This document shows positions 5,766 through 19,986 of a DNA stretch of 64,000 nucleotides, one piece after another (the stretch's first letter is position 1; every line of letters starts with the position of its first letter). This stretch comes from Ceratodon purpureus. Lineage: Eukaryota > Streptophyta > Bryopsida > Pseudoditrichales > Ditrichaceae. The stretch lies in the NCBI GenBank assembly GCA_014871385.1, contig CM026423.1:4344408-4408407 (forward strand), read 5' to 3'. The notes under the pieces were generated by a model that searched no databases, was not told the DNA's origin, and saw only the letters and a program-made list of their open reading frames with translations. Made by a program: the position numbers and the translations under genes.

Positions 5766-8368
5766 ATGCCCGATGCGCGCCTTGCGGGGCGCCTCCAGAA
5801 GGAGCTCAAGATGCTGCAAGATCCACCCCCTGGTGTCTGCGTCTGGCCCGCTGACGATACTAATCTCTCGCGTCTGGAAGCTCGTAAGCAAATTCTTCCA
5901 TCCCACGTCTCTCGTCGCTTTAGCTCCGCTGCGCATGTGCCCCAGGTGGTGAACATTCTGGTGCTAACATGGCAAGAACATTACTCAGCAAAGCTTTGTG
6001 GCGCTACACTAGTCCGATTATGCTTATCAACCTAGAAAAGCTGCTGAAGCAATTGGTGAAGTGATCCTCTGTTTGTTACCGTGCGCAGAGATCCAGGGAC
6101 CAGATGGAACTGTATATGCGAAGGGCATCTTCAAGCTTGAGGTTGAAATTCCTGACAGGTAAGCGTCATTCTCGGTTTAATTTCTCTCGAGTCAAATGTG
6201 CATGATCGCGCTTTTGAAATTTCATGCGATTGTCTGCATTGCGCTGCAGGTATCCATTTGAGCCACCAAATGTGAAGTTTATCACTCCTGTGTACCACCC
6301 AAACATCGACAGTGGCGGTCGTATTTGCCATGACATCCTCAACATGCCTCCCAAGGTCTTCGCAGTTGCCTTCTGCCGTGTTTAGAAACAGAAGCAAGCA
6401 GTTTGATCCTAGAGAATTAGAACTATTATATGCTCCATCTCAGTTCTCGTACATTACGGTTAGTTTATCTTTGAAGTAATCTTGTTTTAATCTCGAAAGG
6501 AATAAATGATGACTAAATCAAATCTCTTGAAATTGACAGGGCCAGTGGAGGCCATCACTTAATATTGGTGCTGTTCTCGCAAGCATTCGCGTACTTCTTG
6601 AGGAACCAAATCATGACGACGGTTTGATGAGTGATATTGTGAGCCTCGCCCTCCTCAGAATGAGAAATACTACCTTCTGCATTGACAAAATCTGTTGATA
6701 TATTTTGCTAACCTCTGGCGTGTTGCTGGAAATGTGTCGAACAGTCTGCAGAATACAAACACAATCGAGCTCTTTTTGATGACAAAGCCAGGCAGTCGAC
6801 TGAGCGCTATGCTATGCAAAATTCAGCAGAGAGGAATGTGTCTTGTAATGACGTCGATCAAGCTAAACCTGTGGCATTCCAATCAACTTCTGAGAATCAG
6901 GTGAGCAGAAACCCTATAGTGCAGACTTTGCAATATAGTTGTGAACTCTACTTGCTCGAAGTCCCCTTCAGTTGCACCCGTTGCACCATGATCGAAAAAA
7001 TACTTGATTAAGGAATCGGTGAAATCCTGTCCACAAGATGATCCGAAGTGCCTTCTCATATTCTATCTGCCAAATCCTCTTGCAGTCCCCGTTTCAATTG
7101 CTGTAGTAGGTGCCATCAATTATTCAGTTGCTTTTGTGTATTAATTATTCAACTGTGTCTTATGTTGTTAATTTTGGGTCTAGACTGTAGAGAAAGCCAT
7201 CCAAGACACGCTCGCAAGGCCACTTCTGAAGGAAGTGAACAGGGTTGGGGCCTCCAAAGTAGCGCTTGACGAACCAAGTACAAGTGTCCCCGGGGTAGCT
7301 GCTTCAAGGCTCACCCAAGCCAGGCCACGTCAGAATCTCGCTGCCAAACTCTCCCTGGCAAAAGGAGCCACTGCGCAGGGGGTACGTTCGTCCAGTCTTG
7401 GAGTTGCTGGAGAGGCCGAACCGACGAGTTCATTAAGCTTCAGCTCCGAGAAAGAGAGACCACGTGAAACGGGGGTTTTATGTGGTCTAGGTAGTCAGAA
7501 AATATCACAGCTAGGTGGTACGTGTATCAATATTTACCTTCTTTTTCCAGAATATTTCTCCGTTGTAGAATTGAATTTAGCATTCGATCGTCCATTTAGT
7601 GGAATATTTGGTAGGAAGGGAAGGTAGAAAGCAACGTAAACACGAAGTTTAACTTCCTCTTTTTGTGCAGAATTGAATGGACCATCTGTTGCCAATGCCG
7701 GTAAGATGACCGTTCACAAACCCGAGAATATCACAACAGTTGATCCGCCAGTGGAATTATGTGAAAAGAAACCAGATAGTAGAGCTGCCGTCAACATCGT
7801 AAGCCAACAACCAGCAAACTGTAGCGTTACGAAGGACAGACAGCCTAATACACAGACTCTCGCCTCCCAAAGTAGTCAAAGGACATCCACGTCAGGTGAC
7901 TCATTCTTCTGCCTTTGATCCATTGTCGAGTAATTGATCAATTGGAAGTTTGTGCAGAAAAATAGATAGTGTATGCTCTCAGAAATTGGCGTGTGAATTC
8001 GGTACCAACGATATGGCAGATCATGAGAGAGGGCGAGTACTTGGTCTTAATAATGTACTTAGCAGACCCTGTTAGGTTGGTCCTTGTCTATCGTCTAAAG
8101 TTAAGCCGTGGTTTTCACAGACAAAGGAAAGAAGCTGATGCTTCCCAAGACGAAGTTACTAAAGCTCTCTCGACCTCTACCATTGGCTTCACAAAGTGTT
8201 GAAGAGAGTAGTCCAGCAGGAGAAATTCCTCGGGGCACGAGTGAGGTGAAGGGAATGGCACAGATGTCGAAGGAGCCTGTTATCCTTTTGGACAGTGAGA
8301 GCGATGATGAAAATTTCAGAGTACAGCCTCGTTCTCAAGGAGTGAAGCGTAAATATGAATGTACATAG
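5766..8368 (+). CDS. Ubiquitin-conjugating enzyme E2 T-like (UBC37 type)
   Basis: Eight exons with consistent phase (5766-5883, 6089-6158, 6250-6355, 6540-6638, 6745-6900, 7184-7517, 7671-7895, 8121-8368) give 451 residues. The N-terminal half is a UBC fold: basic helix with LQKELKML, the [15 protein letters not shown] sheet, YPFEPP, HPN, and the catalytic cysteine in GGRICHDIL, followed by [12 protein letters not shown] and the [14 protein letters not shown] helix. Order and spacing match UBE2T/plant UBC37, the E2 that works with FANCL to monoubiquitinate FANCD2/FANCI in crosslink repair; the role here is inferred from the family. The tail (about 250 residues) is low-complexity and ends with a SUMO-interaction-like motif, [11 protein letters not shown]. 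The exon 3 donor (GTCTTC) is weak but is fixed by phase. The start lies in the first good frame ahead of the UBC helix. The last exon crosses the left edge of the large inverted repeat at 8272. Confidence 0.88.
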
Positions 8369-8905
8369 ATTCCTGGGCTGGATGGAAGGAGACCCTTTGA
8401 TTGATTGGTTTGCTCATTCAGTTTTCACAAGCATTCTCAGAAACTATATGTGCACACATTTGTGTATATGTGCACATATTTGTGTCACGGTTTAGCACTG
8501 AAGGGGACATCATCGATTCTCAGCTGCATAACACCTCTGGTTCTAATGGTCTCCAGTATGACATATTGGAGCATTCCTTTCTAGTTGTGGAAATTGCTTG
8601 CGTAGTTTTCCGTGTGGAAAGACATTAAGTCTTTACCCCTTGGAGAACATGTCGATCCGATGAAGCCCAAAATATATTTTGGCTGTCATGGTGCCTTGAG
8701 ATATGATCGTATTGACAAACAGTGGAGGCGTTCACACGTTACAATTTGTGTGCGGTGCATACAGGGTACTAGGCTGTGAGGCTCCACTGTTGCGTATTAC
8801 AGATCCTGTGAACCAATAACGGTCAGAATAGGTCAAGGAATTTTTTTAATCTAACCTTAAATTCTGTTACAGCATCAAATCATTTCCAAGCTTGCTTAGG
8901 TGTGA

Positions 8906-17395: not shown

Positions 17396-19880
17396 CTCCC
17401 CACCGCTCCCCACCTCGACAAACGGTATGGGTTTAATGCAGTACCCACTGCCCACTAATGGACGTCTCACCCACCCTGGCTGAGTGCCCTCAGTTGCTCG
17501 CATAAACGTCGAAGCTTTCCCAATTATCAATGAGAGAGATGTGCATCGATCAGGTCATTGTAACCTCATCGTACCTGAACCACACTCGGCACAGCAGCCT
17601 GATGTCAAGTGGGACACACTTACTCACTCTCCATTCTACATTGAGCATTGCCGTCAAGCCATGATCGGGATCACATGAGCAGTGAACCCTTAGTACCCAC
17701 TCTCAGAATGTATTATTTCTGTCACCTTCTTGCTGTCCACTAATTTGTGCCGTGATCTCGCTGTCCGCAAAGTGGATCGCCACTTCGCCAGTACCGCATC
17801 AAACTCATGCGGTTCTCAAAGTTCCTCACACATGATTGAAGTACTTCGACTGGCTCATCGAACAGAGGGCTTCGGCAGAGCCGATTTCACCATTACCATC
17901 CTGCCGAAGCTGACCTTATATATATGGCCGGGAGACTGTGATGGAATTACAATATGGAAACTACGCACAATCGAATACACGTCTTCAGGTCGCAAGCTGC
18001 AGAGAATTATGCTCAGGATTCTCCATGTCCATCTACATTTCTCTCGCAAATTTGGCCAAGTAAACCAACCATCCATGGAGAGATCACTCCGGAGAGGCAT
18101 CAGTCGAATGGCACCTGAAAGCAATCCACTTGTAGCCAATCCGTCGCTTTAACTTCAATTCAGCATGGACGGTCTAAAGGTTGTCGATTTTCAGGTGTAT
18201 CTTCGTGCTCATCATCTTGTTGCGGCGTTGTATGAGATCAAAAAAATTCCGATCTTATTTCGGCGGCTTGTTGAGTAGGTGATTAAATAAGCTGTCAAGT
18301 CTGAAAGGAGGTACAAAGCTCTTTAGGGTCTGTAGTTTTGGAGTCGCTGGTATCGGGACGAGGACGATTTGCAAGTTTGTGAGCAATGTGTCACTGGGTA
18401 GCTTGGACGGGAGGCTGTGTTTTGTGGTATTTGCAAGCAAGATTCCAAGCTGAGATGACTTAAGACGGATGGCTCCGACAAAGTTATTGCAGAAACTACT
18501 AATAAACTTGACTACTGCAACACCAGATGAAGCTAATTTTTTGGTGGAAGCACAAGTGAGCACTCTCAAATTCCTTGCCTGAAATCGATTTGCTAATTTG
18601 TAGGGAGTTGTAGAATGACGAGCTCCCTTGTTAGTTCAGGAAACAATTCCAGAAATTCTCCATGTAAGGCAACTCGCAAACTCTCAGAATTTCAAATGTC
18701 TTTGGGATTGTCCAGAGCCTGTTTCCACGCCAAGAAAGCTTTCAATGTAACAACACAGTATCAAACCTGCTCTAGCTCACATACATTGTTCGTATATTGA
18801 ATTTGAATGTCCAGCTGTTATCTTGGATATTCAATATTCTGGCAGTGTGATTCTTGTTGTCACTACTAACCTCGTGGCCAAATTGTTCTGTTCACAAAAT
18901 CATTCTCATTAGAGCTGCATCTGAGTTAAATGAGTTGTAAAGTGTTGACTCGAATGAGATCTTTGACAAGGGAGAGTTGTTTCTGCATTAGCAAAGTTGA
19001 TATACCAGTACACACTTAGTAAAGATTTTGGTTCTCGCAACGCCACAGTGACAAACACGAAAGGCACGCACCAATGGTTGTGGTACTTAAAATGCTGTTT
19101 AAAACTAGATATTGTCGATTGGAAAGAAAGGTTGCAAAAAACAAATACGTCTTTTAGGTACAAATTCATCCTACTCCTATTGCCTACTATCAAAATTCAC
19201 CGTGCAAACAACTGTCAGCAAGCAAGTGAACAAAATATACGGACATGTTTATAGCTACATGCGCTATATCACTGAAAGATGACGCATACGTAACAAGTAC
19301 TTCTCACTACACTGTAACAAGTACTTCTCACTACAGTGTAACAAGTTCACACCTAAGCAAGCTTGGAAATGATTTGATGCTGTAACAGAATTTAAGGTTA
19401 GATTTAAAAAATTCCTTGACCTATTCTGACCGTTATTGGTTCACAGGATCTGTAATACGCAACATTGGAGCCTCACAGCCTAGTACCCTGTATGCACTGC
19501 ACACAAATTGTAACGTGTGAACGCCTCCACTGTTTGTCAATACGATCATATCTCAAGGCACCATGACAGCCAAAATATATTTTGGGCTTCATCGGATCGA
19601 CATGTTCTCCAAGGGGTAAAGACTTAATGTCTTTCCACACGGAAAACTACGCAAGCAATTTCCACAACTAGAAAGGAATGCTCCAATATGTCATACTGGA
19701 GACCATTAGAACCAGAGGTGTTATGCAGCTGAGAATCGATGATGTCCCCTTCAGTGCTAAACCGTGACACAAATATGTGCACATATACACAAATGTGTGC
19801 ACATATAGTTTCTGAGAATGCTTGTGAAAACTGAATGAGCAAACCAATCAATCAAAGGGTCTCCTTCCATCCAGCCCAGG
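17396..19880. other. Right-arm copy of E2 3' flank and U2 upstream DNA
   Basis: No convincing gene. The long frames at 17730-18152 (+) and 18255-18569 (-) are the mirror images of those in the left arm. The interrupted CxxC-CxxC frame lies on the plus strand at about 18351-18457. Confidence 0.45.
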
Positions 19881-19986
19881 AATCTATGTACATTCATATC
19901 TACGCTTCACTCCTTGAGAACGAGGCTGTACTCTGAAATTTTCATCATCGCTCTCACTGTCCAAAAGGATAACAGGCTCCCTATCA

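Follow-up and report, generated by a model that had tools for sequence, protein, structure and literature searches.

A 64,000-nucleotide stretch of the genome of the moss Ceratodon purpureus (assembly GCA_014871385.1, contig CM026423.1; hereafter the window, located at C3:4344408-4408407 in the 362.5-Mb genome) contains a large palindrome whose arms each carry a gene for U2 small nuclear RNA (snRNA). The palindrome is probably a genuine and fairly young inverted segmental duplication in which the left arm is the original, with replication or repair involving a template switch as the likeliest route of its formation. We hold this reading as a whole with good confidence.

Structure of the U2 palindrome

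The left arm extends from 8272 to 12616 on the plus strand (4,345 bp) and the right arm from 15670 to 19980 on the minus strand (4,311 bp), with a spacer of 3,053 bp and 33% GC between them (12617 to 15669). A blastn self-alignment, the procedure proposed in the preliminary description for measuring arm identity, yielded 98.6% (4286 of 4346 columns, 24 substitutions, 36 gap columns, E = 0) and reproduced the arms of 4.35 and 4.31 kb around a 3.05-kb spacer reported there. The arms had also been described as collinear with scattered substitutions and a few short indels, in agreement with the substitutions and gap columns of the alignment, the latter forming six gap openings by BLAST and five gap runs by MAFFT. 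The outer flanks of the two arms bear no relation to each other. Long inverted repeats with highly similar arms are the mark of gene-conversion palindromes of the Y/X and worm type, and the moss structure has this form, including a unique spacer, although about 0.9 kb of its 3.05 kb is a repeat present elsewhere. Inverted repeats of 200 bp or more were absent from 40 kb of C6 and 40 kb of C8, which served as controls; both control stretches are contiguous, C6 is the 110.5-Mb contig and the C8 stretch includes one U5 match. The structure of the palindrome is far beyond chance.

The U2 genes are located at 10920..11113 (plus strand; fold z = -5.5) and 17170..17363 (minus strand) and are identical in sequence. 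Both are full length (positions 1-192 of the Rfam model RF00004) and score 181.3 bits against a gathering score of 46, which places them in the family. They are convergent, as had been claimed from the letters of the window.

A Pfam search with the open reading frames (ORFs) of arm and spacer found nothing above the cut-off. Within the spacer, a stretch of about 900 bp (14056-14951) recurs at 92% identity in L042, close to another U2 locus, and a short inverted repeat at 12970-13065, ggttacgcaccggcc ... ggccggtgcgtaacc, noticed by eye, is perhaps a miniature inverted-repeat transposable element (MITE).

Genuine duplication or assembly artefact

A genome search with the outer part of the arm (8272-10600) returned 14 matches, namely the two arms and 12 relatives at 69-89% identity; the genome-wide search of the arm reached up to about position 11180. 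With the paralogues as outgroup, the 16 of the 24 substitutions that lie within the stretch having paralogues could be polarised: seven are derived in the left arm, seven in the right, and two are unclear. The two arms have evolved separately, each with private mutations in equal number, and because the derived changes are split evenly the palindrome is unlike an assembly duplicate of one locus. The preliminary description had argued against a simple assembly duplication from the private differences of the arms and their different outer flanks. That argument is strengthened by the finding of derived changes on both arms next to flanks that are unrelated.

An artefact would mean that one locus was duplicated in reverse during assembly, for example through palindromic reads with a missed adapter. 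Such an origin would account for the several other palindromes in the genome with exactly identical arms and for a near-identical pair elsewhere whose spacer measures only 122 bp. It does not fit the 3.05-kb spacer, the unrelated outer flanks or the 7-to-7 split of derived mutations of the U2 palindrome, nor the cupin gene inside the spacer of a second palindrome in the same window (see below), and we regard it as highly improbable. The case for a genuine-looking inverted duplication, as opposed to a simple assembly duplication, is strong but indirect, drawn as it is from the assembled sequence.

The probable original arm and the proposed mode of duplication

To the left of the palindrome lies part of a gene for a UBE2T-like ubiquitin-conjugating enzyme (6090..8368, plus strand), whose exons were joined by hand. 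It matches Pfam UQ_con with 1.6e-32 and UBE2T in PDB with 6.6e-40; of the six best PDB matches, five carry the name UBE2T and the sixth HSPC150, and all lie at least about 42 bits above the next. The last exon, likewise assigned by hand, appears to cross 8272 into the left arm and to stop at 8368. Because the exon appears continuous across the edge, it is probably the left arm that is native, the right arm being its inverted copy. On its outer side the right arm adjoins an unrelated gene on the minus strand, at that gene's 3' end; part of the gene is found at 19987..21230 as ORFs with the exon phase inferred by hand, its inferred stop lies 6 bp outside the arm, and a Pfam match above the cut-off is absent. 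A native left copy is not a general rule among such palindromes: on C7 an outer piece is retained by the right copy, whereas at C10:3.17 Mb and C9:8.86 Mb the left copy has homology beyond the edge of the palindrome, as on C3.

In the proposed sequence of events, a 4.3-kb piece reaching from the last exon of the UBE2T-like gene to a point past U2 would have been copied in reverse, and the inverted copy would have been joined about 3 kb downstream, beside the end of another gene. The likeliest route would be a switch of template to the opposite strand during replication or repair, that is, a fold-back event resembling microhomology-mediated break-induced replication (MMBIR) or origin-dependent inverted-repeat amplification (ODIRA). 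Afterwards both arms would have acquired private mutations, and in some palindromes of the genome arm-to-arm gene conversion may have followed.

Several points weigh against this scheme. There is no long microhomology at the outer junction and only a run of T at the inner one, so that no signature proves a template switch, and the polarity of the copy depends on the hand-assigned exons. Only one of the 24 substitutions falls within the inner 1,181 bp of the palindrome (P 0.005, for a region chosen after the fact), and the longest clean run between the arms is ordinary in length (P 0.17). The U2 palindrome itself gives no more than a hint of gene conversion.

The shared U2 unit and the number of origins

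The C3 arm has a U2 unit in common with loci on C10, C9 and C7. The unit starts near arm position 1089-1102, and in the stretches read its end lies at most about 390 bp beyond U2. The edges of the palindromes on the shared unit differ, being located at arm position 1 on C3, at about 2030 at C10:3.17 Mb and at about 1820-1919 at C9:8.86 Mb. Because of these differing edges, separate inverted duplications are the simplest explanation and descent of the palindromes from one ancestral palindrome is disfavoured; it is likelier that the paralogous U2 loci formed their palindromes separately.

In the opposite scenario, an old palindrome was common to the paralogous U2 loci and ongoing gene conversion maintained the similarity of its arms, as in worms. 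The paralogous loci on C10, C9 and C7 are also convergent pairs, the pieces compared are 97-100% identical within pairs as against 69-89% to the C3 arm, and the C10:3.22/3.24 Mb pair retains the whole shared unit to its start in both copies. On C10 an oppositely oriented piece of the unit is located about 1.5 kb beyond the right arm, as might result from erosion of an older palindrome. These observations count in favour of an old palindrome and against a separate duplication on C3. However, the two palindromes with readable edges have them at other points of the unit, and homology in the stretches read does not continue beyond about 390 bp past U2. On balance an old shared palindrome is unlikely, though it deserves to be kept in mind.

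A transposable element that carried U2 in its inverted ends, or an element that moved an arm, would be a further source of such a structure. The U2 unit of about 2 kb is dispersed over several loci, and its upstream limit is similar among them, as would be expected of an element, but the edges of the palindromes lie off that limit and vary between loci. By eye, terminal repeats and target duplications were not seen at 8272 or 19980, and transposon ends were not seen at the palindrome junctions. We give this explanation hardly any credence and favour separate inverted duplication of the paralogous loci.

A second palindrome in the window

The window also contains a second palindrome, whose left arm (50094..57506, plus strand) carries a NOT2-like gene, identified by a PDB match to CCR4-NOT subunit 2 with 7.7e-19. 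This arm pairs with 63894-71342; the start of the right arm (63894..64000, minus strand) is contained in the window and the arm continues beyond it to 71342. The identity of the arms is stepped: one mismatch in the inner 5,250 bp contrasts with 66 in the adjoining 1,743 bp farther out. Such a step points either to gene conversion or to a nested second duplication, and it is the best evidence in this analysis for arm-to-arm conversion. The outward 1.7 kb is about 4% divergent, and the step, which is sharp, lies near 52,150. Between the arms, the spacer contains a cupin (germin-like) gene at 58946-59617. Tandem repeats of short period are found at 4338-4495 and 50092-50193.

A view of the U2 palindrome as standing alone is not supported, as the window contains the left arm of the longer NOT2 palindrome, and further U2 and U1 genes are also present as inverted duplicates. 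The NOT2 palindrome and the U1 pairs also rule out a feature specific to U2.

Inverted pairs elsewhere in the genome

Three further U2 palindromes were compared as DNA. At C2:22.78 Mb each arm contains two U2 genes and all 3531 of 3531 readable positions are identical; at C9:8.50 Mb the arms agree in 2469 of 2470 positions, with two gap columns, around the 122-bp spacer mentioned above; at C2:23.98 Mb identity is 99.7-99.9% in three blocks and a 4.8-kb stretch interrupts the left side. Pieces of 1.1 kb from ten further inverted neighbour pairs (seven U2, three U1) revealed duplicates in nine cases. Five of these nine U2/U1 pairs are identical over all readable letters, and the remainder are 88-99.7% identical over the matching part, which in some reaches an edge. 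The only divergent U2 neighbour pair among the ten compared is not a duplicate. Palindromes thus appear to be common in the genome and to have arisen more than once. Where the arms are identical, as in several palindromes, they would be either very young or subject to arm-to-arm gene conversion.

Not every U2 locus is palindromic. In five further U2 loci read for about 5 kb on each side an inverted repeat of 120 bp or more was not found, which rules out that generalisation; for one of the five, C10:3.225 Mb, the partner sits 19 kb away, and another, L042, represents the C2:22.78 Mb unit in a third copy. In 22 U2 loci read for about 1.4-1.5 kb on each side, inverted repeats of 100 bp or more occurred at two only, as hairpins of 121-126 bp, and stretches of about 1.5 kb on each side are too short to reveal wide palindromes.

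The orientation of recent duplicates was estimated by proxy from neighbours no more than 20 kb apart with equal match scores; an equal score does not amount to sequence identity, and some matches to light-harvesting complex (LHC) genes are short. The U5 and LHC pairs, and at least four other inverted U1/U2 neighbour sets, are known by match score and not as DNA. Among the 40 U2 matches listed there are at least eight convergent, no divergent and one direct pair, among the 42 U1 matches listed at least three convergent, no divergent and three direct pairs, and among the 47 U5 matches listed at least two convergent, two divergent and two direct pairs. All 85 LHC matches yielded four convergent, three divergent and 11 direct pairs. 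In other plants, same-strand arrays make up about 80% of tandem arrays in Arabidopsis and 88% in rice, that is, about 20% and 12%, respectively, are inverted (PMC2547482). Over U2, U1, U5 and LHC, 22 of the 39 equal-score pairs among the matches listed are inverted, which against the expected 20% corresponds to P = 6e-7, or to P = 0.0009 without U2; these values are to be read with the provisos that the cited work counts arrays differently, that pairs within one cluster are not independent and that U2 prompted the question. The duplicated U1 and U2 genes observed converge, but the two divergent U5 and three divergent LHC pairs break any rule that all inverted pairs do so, and convergence (17 of the 22 inverted pairs, P 0.017) is at most a bias.

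Some arrangements are more complex. A mixed cluster at G000:C4:6063541-6077488 contains two U1 genes and one U2 gene on the plus strand facing two U1 genes on the minus strand about 10 kb away. Judged by equal scores, G000:C11:9432340-9438979 and C11:8194685-8197619 are mirror-image divergent U5 clusters with two genes per side.

Putative transcription signals of the U2 genes

Plant snRNA genes transcribed by RNA polymerase II carry an upstream sequence element (USE), a TATA box at about -30 and a 3' box. Both U2 copies have a CCCATAC core at -68, contained in USE-like elements at 10850..10862 (plus strand) in the left arm and 17421..17433 (minus strand) in the right arm. The left element has a derived T at 10859, where C is present in the right element (position 17424) and in four of four paralogues compared. 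A loose USE core was found in at least 19 of the 34 U2 rows examined, 16 of these at -68; the rows include both arms of some palindromes, and the count is a lower bound in that at least four of the 15 non-matching rows were printed in the reverse sense. A TATA-like box at about -30 (10887..10896, plus strand) was recognised by eye from the upstream regions, as was a 3'-box-like element after U2 (11128..11152, plus strand), which resembles a stretch downstream of other U2 genes; both are the same in the right arm.

Since an intact RNA is accompanied in both copies by signals resembling a USE, a TATA box and a 3' box, each copy seems capable of expression, the left perhaps to a lesser degree on account of the T at 10859, and the two are probably transcribed toward each other, adding to the U2 dosage. 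The preliminary description had emphasised the duplication of an essential spliceosomal RNA with its promoter. Intact U2 and the promoter region are indeed present in both arms, but U2 forms a multicopy family in the genome (40 of 105 candidates were scored), so that nothing depends on one essential gene.

Implications and comparison with known systems

It is conceivable, and we put it forward tentatively, that the highly transcribed snRNA loci act as hotspots, turning into palindromes again and again and each time independently, with U1 and U2 genes tail to tail, and that these palindromes are homogenised by arm-to-arm conversion. If true, a dispersed snRNA family would undergo concerted evolution by means of autosomal palindromes and not of tandem arrays. 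Long near-identical inverted repeats are considered unstable. If the excess of inverted pairs holds genome-wide, mosses would tolerate or use autosomal palindromes, and would provide a tractable system for studying the formation and survival of palindromes and the uniformity of essential RNA gene families. Physcomitrella displays a high rate of repair by homologous recombination (PMC3729371).

In Physcomitrella, tandemly arrayed genes are cited as highly similar, which suggests gene conversion; the study concerns hexokinase genes, and the words "inverted" and "orientation" are absent from its main text (PMC3045890). In yeast, ODIRA resembles the proposed origin of the U2 palindrome in that a replication error at short inverted repeats yields inverted copies without distal loss, but the products there are inverted triplications whereas the moss has two copies (PMC4689423). 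In Caenorhabditis, homologous gene pairs arranged as long inverted repeats are likewise near-perfect and include convergent and divergent pairs; similarity between the arms of a pair exceeds that between orthologues, and active maintenance has been proposed (PMC1803023). The Caenorhabditis pairs consist of protein genes in a structure common to sister species, whereas those of the moss comprise snRNA and protein genes and their edges vary among paralogues.

Sex-chromosome palindromes are usually longer than the U2 palindrome. Those of the mammalian Y and X and the willow W chromosomes are also large gene-bearing inverted repeats with gene conversion, and in mammals the arm identity exceeds 99% (PMC3723533, PMC8981503, PMC7023750). 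In the 360-Mb genome of Ceratodon purpureus, the U and V sex chromosomes are larger than 100 Mb and account for about 30% of the genome (PMC8000587); the U2 palindrome is located on C3, outside the probable sex chromosome, the 110.5-Mb contig. Among the titles and abstract openings listed in searches of open-licence papers, none concerned a moss with inverted snRNA pairs or with palindromes on its autosomes. The U2 palindrome is of a known kind, its closest counterparts being the Caenorhabditis gene pairs and then the sex-chromosome palindromes, and it stands out by its location off the probable sex chromosome, by its snRNA genes and by how frequent such pairs appear to be within a single genome.

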